Shown here: positions 2,430 to 5,101 of the stretch, piece after piece
How positions within the stretch are numbered: position 1 is the stretch's first letter
Layout: each line of letters starts with the position of its first letter
Source of the DNA: a virus
Direction: 5' to 3' (one strand)
Virus record (IMG/VR): IMGVR_UViG_3300049827_000049
Location: 1 to 23,492 of that record
Length of the DNA stretch: 23,492 nt
Translations under genes and position numbers: made by a program
Notes under the pieces: model-generated
What the model was told of the DNA's origin: nothing
What the model saw: the letters and a program-made list of their open reading frames with translations, nothing else
Databases searched by the model: none

Positions 2430-2609
2430 ATGGCGATCAAACTTAACTCTAAGGACACAAAGCTAGTTTTGATTGGCCTAAAGGTTTACCGCCTTTACGT
2501 TGCCGACGAACCTGACACGCCAGCCAAGGCAACTGAGTTGGCAGACATTGACCGCCTGTGCGCGACTTACTTGCGGTCGGGTAGGGCGTTGGTCAGGGTG
2601 GGCAAATGA
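2430..2609 (+). CDS. Small protein of unknown function
   Basis: A 59-aa protein beginning MAIKLNSKDTKLVLIGLKVY and ending [12 protein letters not shown]. The start at ATG 2430 lies two bases after the membrane-peptide stop, and its TGA overlaps the methyltransferase ATG as ATGA. It is basic overall with no transmembrane segment or recognisable motif. The middle (TPAKATELADIDRLCATY) should be helical. Translational coupling to the methyltransferase suggests co-expression with it. Confidence 0.6.
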   Translation: MAIKLNSKDTKLVLIGLKVYRLYVADEPDTPAKATELADIDRLCATYLRSGRALVRVGK

Positions 2610-3769
2610 CAGCTTATTACAACGAGTATGATCCCAAGGCCGCTGCATGGCTGCGGGAATTAATCAAACAAGGTCACATCGCAGATGGCGTAGTTGACGA
2701 GCGGAGCATCGAAGATGTCACACCAACTGAGCTTGCTGGATTTACTCAGTGCCACTTCTTCGCCGGCATTGGCGTCTGGTCCTACGCCCTGCGCCGCGCA
2801 GGATGGGCCGATGATCGTGCTGTATGGACAGGATCATGTCCGTGCCAGCCTTTCAGCGCGGCAGGCAAAGGAGCGGGGTTTGCTGATGAGCGGCACTTGT
2901 GGCCAGCCTTCCACCACCTCATCAGCCAGTGCCAGCCTGCAATCGTCCTTGGTGAGCAAGTTGCAAGCAAAGACGGCCTTGGTTGGCTCGACCTTGTATT
3001 GTCTGACTTGGAAGCAACGGGATACGCCGGGGGGGCGGTCGATCTCTGCGCTGCGGGCGTCGGTGCGCCGCACATCAGACAACGCCTCTGGTGGGTTGGA
3101 GAAAGGCTGGGCAACGCCAACAACCCACGACGCGAAGGGGACGTTTTACACCCGCTATGGGGAGGACGGGATAGAAGCGGGCCGGATGGCGGCGCTTCAG
3201 GATCAAGTAAAATTGGCGACATGGGCAACCCCGACAACGCGGGACCACAAGGACAGCGGCAACTTGGAAACGTCGATGCACCGTCAGAGTGGTCAACTGC
3301 GGGACGATACAGTGCCACGGCAAGCATGGATGGCGGGCTGGCCGACAGCACAAGCGTCAGACGGGTCGAAGGGGTCACGCACGATGGAAGGCTGCGAGGC
3401 GGAGATAGCGCGGAAGGGTCGGCTGGACGATCTACCGTCAACGGTGACTTGGGCAGCGGGTTGGCCGACACAGATGACGCAGACGGGCGCGGGCAATTCG
3501 GACTTCACGCGCAAGACAGAGGGTTTGTGCGGGAGGGACATAGCAGGTCACAATTTGGACCTTCCAGCGGAGTGGAGCGGCCCGGCCCGACTAACGGCCA
3601 CTGGCGAGATGCTGACTGGCTCTTCTGCCGGGATGGAAAGTGGAGGCCAGTTGAACCCGGCACATCCCCGTTGGCTCATGGGGCTGCCGCCCGTGTGGGA
3701 CGATTGCGCGGTTATGGCAATGCCATCGTCGCTCAAGCCGCGCAAGCCTTCATCGAAAGTGTGATGTGA
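2606..3769 (+). CDS. dcm: DNA (cytosine-5) methyltransferase
   Basis: A 387-aa C5 methyltransferase. Motif I is FFAGIGVW (51-58, AdoMet binding) and motif IV is [12 protein letters not shown] (76-87), with the catalytic Cys at 80. The motif VI position reads GEQV (116-119) instead of ENV, as I recall for phage enzymes. Motif VIII is [12 protein letters not shown] (154-165). Motif X is RGYGNAI near the C-terminus. Between VIII and X lies a glycine/aspartate-rich stretch with repeats of the type GLADT, GLGNAN and GDMGNPD, then [20 protein letters not shown], which I recall as strongly conserved in phage Dcm-like proteins. It probably modifies phage DNA to evade host restriction. ATG 2606 overlaps the upstream stop (ATGA). 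Oddly, a second long frame runs through almost all of the gene from 2715. Confidence 0.9.
2715..3764 (+). CDS. 349-aa overlapping-frame protein nested in the methyltransferase gene
   Basis: This frame lies in the +1 frame relative to the methyltransferase and stays open for 1050 bases, ending 5 bases before the host gene's stop. ATG 2715 has GGAG 8 nt upstream. The protein ([20 protein letters not shown]...) contains four spaced copies of a Trp-x-Thr-Pro-like motif: [12 protein letters not shown] (131-142), [12 protein letters not shown] (169-180), [13 protein letters not shown] (208-220) and [10 protein letters not shown] (249-258). Its C-terminal block is [16 protein letters not shown] (313-328). 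I recall proteins with WPTPT..D.K repeats and an LNPxxxxWLMGxPxxW ending beside or inside phage cytosine methyltransferase genes, also as separate genes. That supports real coding rather than chance, but no enzymatic role is known to me. The caution is that this region is open in a minus-strand frame too. Confidence 0.6.
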
Positions 3770-4638: not shown

Positions 4639-4809
4639 GTGGCTGACCGATACGGAAACCGAACCATCATCAAGATGTTCAACCAGATCAACGCGCTTCG
4701 CAAGGCTATCCGCAGCGAAGGCACACCAGCAATCCAAGATGCGTGGGATAAGGTCGAGGAACATATCGACTTCATTTACATACAGAGCGAGGCGAAGAAT
4801 GTTGATTAA
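4639..4809 (+). CDS. 56-aa GTG-initiated protein of unknown function
   Basis: Directly after the TAG of the HTH gene, GTG 4639 opens a frame of 56 codons to TAA 4807-4809. GGAG lies 7 nt upstream, inside the end of the HTH gene. The product (MADRYGNRTIIKMFNQINAL, then AIRSEGTPAIQDAWDKVEEH and IDFIYIQSEAKNVD) is all-helical and amphipathic, and is packed between its neighbours. The next gene's ATG (4799) overlaps it by 11 bases. No family is recognised. Tight packing, a ribosome binding site and sensible composition make it a credible small gene easily missed by ATG-only or length-filtered calling. Confidence 0.55.
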   Translation: MADRYGNRTIIKMFNQINALRKAIRSEGTPAIQDAWDKVEEHIDFIYIQSEAKNVD

Positions 4810-5101
4810 GATTAGGGGCGTGACATATCCCAGCGTCAAGGCGGCGGCAGAGGCGCATGATGTGCGTATTGATGCCATCTATTCGGCTTTGAATCGCGGC
4901 AGGATTGATGAGGTTGGCACGGGTAAGTCCAGAAGAAAGCAGATCACCCTAAACGGCTTTACCTTCCCGTCGATTTCCGCTGCCAGCGTGGCCTTGGGTT
5001 TCGGTCGGACGTATCTGGGCAAGGCTTTGGTCAACGGCAGCGAAATCAGCCGAAACAGGGTGCAAAACGCAATCAAGGTTTATGAGGAGAAAACCAAATG
5101 A
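4799..5101 (+). CDS. Tandem NUMOD1-like DNA-binding protein
   Basis: A 100-aa protein built from two copies of a roughly 45-residue unit. Copy 1 is IRGVTYPSVKAAAEAHDVRI with IYSALNRGR. Copy 2 is LNGFTFPSISAASVALGFGR with LGKALVNGS. The pattern strand-(Y/F)PS-x2-AA-helix-turn-helix resembles NUMOD1-type modular DNA-binding domains, which normally sit behind HNH or GIY-YIG homing-endonuclease domains. No nuclease domain is present here, so it is a free-standing tandem version. ATG 4799 follows GAGG with 6 nt. The earlier in-frame start at 4739 is rejected because it would lie inside the 56-aa gene. The C-terminus (NRVQNAIKVYEEKTK) is basic. Its stop overlaps the next start (ATGA). Confidence 0.65.
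   Translation: MLIKIRGVTYPSVKAAAEAHDVRIDAIYSALNRGRIDEVGTGKSRRKQITLNGFTFPSISAASVALGFGRTYLGKALVNGSEISRNRVQNAIKVYEEKTK

Follow-up and report, generated by a model that had tools for sequence, protein, structure and literature searches.

An open reading frame of 349 codons lying within a phage C5-cytosine methyltransferase gene is a real, conserved gene, and the two nested genes very probably encode the two chains of one heterodimeric C5-cytosine DNA methyltransferase of the M.EcoHK31I type. The window, which spans all 23,492 bases of an IMG/VR virus record, carries portal, head, tail tape-measure, tail fibre, endolysin, exonuclease and resolvase genes. The outer gene, here called alpha (2606-3769, + strand), encodes 387 amino acids with methyltransferase motifs I-VIII and X and without motif IX. 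The inner gene, beta (2715-3764, + strand), lies in the +1 frame of alpha and runs from ATG 2715, with an in-frame TTG upstream at 2694, to a stop at 3764, 5 nt before the end of alpha; its product of 349 amino acids contains variable-region repeats and a block assigned to motif IX. A preliminary description of this DNA had given the same coordinates, lengths, +1 frame and 5-nt distance to the end of the host gene, all of which were correct on recheck. Elsewhere in the window, a 120-amino-acid open reading frame (4739-5101, + strand) contains two repeated segments, GVTYPSVKAAAEAHDV / GFTFPSISAASVALGF, resembling DNA-binding repeats found beside phage endonucleases; it had no PHROG match.

Methyltransferase motifs in the two reading frames

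Alpha carries motifs I, IV (PCQ), VI and VIII in the order typical of C5-cytosine DNA methyltransferases. Motif I (FAGIG, 2759-2773, +) and motif X (GYGNAI, 3710-3727, +) are near-invariant in the alpha alignment, while motif IV with the catalytic cysteine (GSCPCQPFS, 2831-2857, +) and the motif VI position (2954-2962, +), which reads EQV instead of the usual ENV, were identified by alignment with M.HhaI. The variable region, motif IX and motif X that a one-chain enzyme holds together are not united in alpha, whose sequence before motif X contains nothing resembling motif IX; they are found together only in the alpha-beta pair. Alpha matched PHROG 363 (3.2e-87) and the Pfam family DNA_methylase (1.4e-12), the latter over residues 75-173 only. 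In the AlphaFold model of alpha, residues 1-167 and about 370-387 were confident and residues about 178-335 disordered, and a Foldseek search with this model matched M.HaeIII and M.HhaI over about 185 columns. Alpha is predicted to be disordered where the DNA reads as repeats in the beta frame; as the preliminary description had noticed, the GLADT stretch of alpha is the other reading of the DNA of the GWPT repeats. Alpha also has a conserved block before motif X. Target recognition may reside in the beta repeats, in this block, or in both.

The beta chain contains an N-terminal block (LQSSL..LTWK..TPGGR..ALRAS, 2919-3065, +) that overlies alpha motifs VI-VIII, is conserved in the beta alignment and was modelled by AlphaFold as a helix (residues 70-90) and two strands (95-103 and 109-117). 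It is followed by repeats 1 (GWATPTTHD, 3105-3131, +), 2 (TWATPTTRD, 3219-3245, +) and 3 (GWPTAQASD, 3336-3362, +), all evident in the sequence and the beta alignment, and by a degenerate fourth repeat seen in the sequence (GWPT, 3459-3470, +). Four WxTP-type motifs had been described previously: the tryptophans are present at beta residues 132, 170, 209 and 250, but the third and fourth copies read WPTA and WPTQ, which leaves two strict WxTP motifs. The terminal LNP..WLMG block, also described previously, was found at residues 312-328 (LNPxxxRWLMGxPxxW, 3648-3698, +) and is near-invariant in 62 homologues. Beta matched the profiles PHROG 31772 (9.2e-39) and PHROG 1008 (6.9e-37); no family was found for it in Pfam or NCBIfam, and searching solved structures by sequence, with either beta or its alignment as the query, returned chance matches only. 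The AlphaFold model of beta alone was poor and mostly of low confidence (pLDDT 54, pTM 0.24), so that beta is a candidate for a small domain.

The nature of beta emerges from homologues that lie outside the nested layout. PHROG 1008 matched Paenibacillus phage Shelly gp56 (8.2e-74), which is nested and annotated as 'g55 internal gene', but also Mycobacterium phage Relief gp77 (1.7e-79), the product of a separate gene that overlaps gp78 by 23 nt and carries the repeats, motif IX and motif X. It further matched the C-terminal part of the single-chain enzymes Babsiella gp54 (1.9e-81), Leonard gp5 (7.5e-60) and Spartoi gp40 (1.1e-33). The independent homologues that the preliminary description had proposed to look for thus exist, both as a separate gene in Relief and as the C-terminal part of single-chain actinophage enzymes. 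Spartoi gp40 aligns to positions 3-321 of the 324 of Pfam DNA_methylase, with LNPEFSEWMMGLPKGW and GNGVVPQQ in one frame. When the beta alignment was compared with the three single-chain enzymes by hhalign, the region from the repeats through motif IX was aligned (94.3%, E 1e-7). Judged by these profile matches, the C-terminal two thirds of beta is homologous to that part of single-chain phage methyltransferases which comprises the variable region and motif IX. Motif IX was not recovered when the profiles of beta and E. coli Dcm were compared directly, and the three single-chain enzymes themselves aligned with Dcm only through motif VI; the motif IX assignment is therefore based on the single-chain phage enzymes, the full-length Pfam match of Spartoi gp40 and the visible likeness to Dcm RRLTPRECARLMGF.

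Given that alpha has no motif IX, that beta has repeats and a motif-IX-like block, and that PHROG 1008 is also found on single-chain C-termini and on separate downstream genes, the pair most likely represents the alpha and beta chains of one enzyme. Alternatively, beta could be a protein with a different role, for instance a regulator or an anti-restriction factor, that merely shares the DNA of the methyltransferase. Its N-terminal block (LTWK..TPxGR), not seen in the single-chain enzymes examined, could hold such an extra function. This alternative is improbable, as the C-terminal two thirds of beta corresponds to just that part of single-chain methyltransferases that is missing from alpha, and an alpha match was present at every locus with a beta match in the later locus set. 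The preliminary description had left the function of the nested product open: its guess of a link to methylation agrees with these data, while its other guess, an anti-restriction role, found no support.

Translation start of beta and arrangements across phages

As described previously, a GGAG sequence precedes ATG 2715 by 8 nt; this putative ribosome-binding site lies at 2703-2706 (+), within Arg-Ser codons of alpha. Codons spelling GGAG were used in 55 of 65 genes that have the equivalent of ATG 2715 as their only candidate ATG, the comparison being taken where alpha reads Arg-Ser upstream, versus 3 of 65 genes without that ATG (p = 3.5e-22, uncorrected for shared descent and inflated because related sequences are not independent). 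In many relatives a stop codon just upstream of the beta start bounds the start position.

In the proposed heterodimer, the catalytic domain (motifs I-VIII) and the helix of motif X would come from alpha. Translation of beta would begin at its own ribosome-binding site within the shared mRNA, and beta would add the variable-region repeats and motif IX, which in a single-chain enzyme are placed between motifs VIII and X. The order along the DNA, with motifs I-VIII in alpha, repeats and motif IX in beta and motif X again in alpha, would be that of a single-chain enzyme. We infer that alpha and beta are each translated, that they associate, and that neither can be dispensed with; they would assemble into one active enzyme that methylates the phage DNA, and this methylation probably protects the phage genome from restriction.

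The same motif order would also be expected if the beta frame were used mainly in a fused product, in which ribosomes leave alpha for the +1 frame once motif VIII is translated and return before motif X, remaking a single-chain enzyme; some actinophage relatives moreover show a short +1 overlap between the two halves. Such a product would require two opposite shifts and would lack the conserved N-terminal block of beta, and beta has a conserved start and ribosome-binding site of its own, so that we consider a fusion of this kind very improbable.

A small profile HMM of motif IX served to assign each locus to a nested (+1), tandem (+1) or single-chain arrangement; sorting by regular expressions was abandoned, as it missed many variants of motifs IX and IV. 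Nested loci numbered 115, 69 and 75 in three sets of the window family and 61 of 80 in a set collected around a Paenibacillus alpha, and the actinophage set comprised 55 single-chain and 17 tandem loci out of 80. In a tree of the catalytic domain the nested forms grouped strongly (3 changes versus a shuffled mean of 28.6); the tree does not set the direction of change because the branch to the Dcm outgroup is very long (3.96). At one locus inside the nested group (L309) alpha is short, and beta includes motif X as well as motif IX. At two further loci within the nested clade (L367:2461-3418 and L368) the repeats and motif IX are back in the alpha frame, with no motif X after them, and the beta N-terminal LTWK block can still be read in the +1 frame. 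The layouts of L309 and L367 support the colinearity of the two halves.

We lean towards a scenario in which the nested pair arose when a single-chain methyltransferase was split between frames and its halves then overprinted each other: the N-terminal block of beta would have arisen over the catalytic DNA of alpha, and the disordered linker of alpha over the DNA of the beta repeats. Single-chain, tandem-split and fully nested forms coexist in phages, and the birth of a kilobase-scale nested gene could therefore be traced stepwise.

Conservation of the nested frame and selection on both readings

When the gene was shuffled among synonymous codons, 8 of 20,000 shuffles reached the length of the +1 frame (p = 4e-4; null median 129 codons, observed 356). 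All 92 distinct methyltransferase homologues examined, a set mostly picked by a scan with the host (alpha) protein, had an open +1 frame, which covered a median of 90% of the gene and was in every case longer than the mean of its own synonymous-shuffle null; the +2 frame showed no excess. Stop codons in the second frame of close relatives, named in the preliminary description as evidence that would speak against a gene, were not found. In tblastn searches of phage records the nested protein gave 197 matches and the host protein 418, the best records being the same loci. At further loci, picked with the nested-frame profile from bacterial genomes and viral contigs and supplemented by phage and plasmid records, alpha and beta matches lay in the same +1 register wherever both were present (161/161).

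Selection was evaluated on 51 independent gene pairs (13,889 codons) by classing sites according to their effect in both frames. The excess purifying selection on the second frame that the preliminary description had proposed as a check is present: dNN/dNS was 0.56 for the beta frame (95% CI 0.53-0.59), compared with 1.37 for the +2 control frame and 1.07 for alpha outside the overlap. By region, beta dNN/dNS was 0.58 where it overlies the catalytic domain, 0.47 in the variable region and 0.45 along the final 75 alpha codons; the corresponding alpha dNN/dSN values were 0.16, 0.84 and 0.39. Over the variable region the nested frame (0.47) is therefore the constrained reading and alpha (0.84) is almost neutral. 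A codon-column shuffle of beta-frame identity gave similar z-scores for the +1 (1.86) and +2 (1.43) frames and did not separate them; the near-equal scores probably stem from uneven rates along the gene, and the test was set aside.

Long alternative frames are common in high-GC genes, antisense frames of up to about 240 codons occur among the homologues, and the column shuffle did not single out the +1 frame, but the notion that the open frame is a mere by-product of the composition and repeats of alpha is already refuted by the synonymous-codon shuffles, by the retention of the frame in every homologue, by the dNN/dNS contrast with the control frame, and by homologues of beta encoded in the frame of alpha itself or as separate genes.

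Several individual loci depart from the common pattern. Two loci in bacterial genomes (L144:3892-5100 and L191:3856-4900) have one internal stop in alpha and an open beta, and are possibly decaying prophages or assembly errors. Two others (L198:3160-4858 and L260:2892-4539) contain an insertion of several hundred bases inside the overlap, with alpha and beta both staying open; in the beta frame the L198 insert encodes an endonuclease VII/HNH-like domain (PHROG 3322, 1e-28), as if a homing endonuclease gene had landed in the nested gene. In Pseudomonas phage LPPA33 (L131:1134-2606) alpha is without its N-terminal part and starts in frame directly after the stop of a ParB-like gene, and a shorter beta is annotated as a gene.

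Relation to known systems and significance

The bacterial enzyme M.EcoHK31I consists of two polypeptides and is specific for YGGCCR, and M.EaeI is a relative. Lee, Kam and Shaw reportedly found in 1995 that the gene for the small chain of M.EcoHK31I lies inside the gene for the large chain, in another frame. The large chain carries motifs I-VIII and X and a predicted target recognition domain, and the small chain carries motif IX (PMC3404938). The preliminary description had missed both this precedent and the role of the nested protein as the motif-IX half of an enzyme. Compared by described layout, the phage locus resembles M.EcoHK31I in having motifs I-VIII and X on the large chain, motif IX, here assigned by homology to single-chain enzymes, on a separate smaller chain, and a nested small-chain gene. 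It differs in that the variable-region repeats are read in beta, while alpha is disordered and nearly neutral there, yet keeps a conserved block before motif X. In M.AquI (CYCGRG), likewise a two-chain C5-methyltransferase split between motifs VIII and IX, the small chain carries motif X together with motif IX (PMC3404938), whereas the phage locus has motif X on alpha and one gene wholly inside the other; the layouts of Relief gp78/gp77 and L309 are nearer to that of M.AquI.

Among phages, the same two frames with the same motifs are already annotated in K1G, K1ind2 ('Mte8-like'), PhiXhv-18 and Paenibacillus phage Shelly (gp55/gp56), the role of the inner product being given only as 'DNA methyltransferase' or 'Mte8-like'. 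Babsiella gp54, Leonard gp5 and Spartoi gp40 share the kind of catalytic domain, the TPxxxD repeats (one copy in Spartoi), motif IX and motif X, but hold everything in one frame of one gene. PHROG 363 and PHROG 1008, which cover both frames and the single-chain parts, are all labelled 'DNA methyltransferase', so that automatic annotation conceals the overlap. In the openly searchable literature, which leaves most subscription papers outside its scope, no paper was found that explains the annotated nested phage pairs. The kind of arrangement is already known, and the present loci show it to be widespread in phages; within the same literature we did not find the extent of its conservation, the evidence for selection, the series of single-chain, tandem and nested forms, or the extra stretch that each chain places over the working part of the other.

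In hundreds of phages and prophages, more than 1 kb of DNA codes for both chains of the enzyme at once; for two genes on the same strand, this overlap is unusually large and well conserved. Most of the records examined name one frame only, so that a subunit is missed in most annotated genomes; where the annotation misses beta, alpha may be tested alone and appear inactive. The coexistence of single-chain, split and nested forms offers a testable case for the origin of nested genes, and nesting may also fix in what ratio and when the two chains are made.
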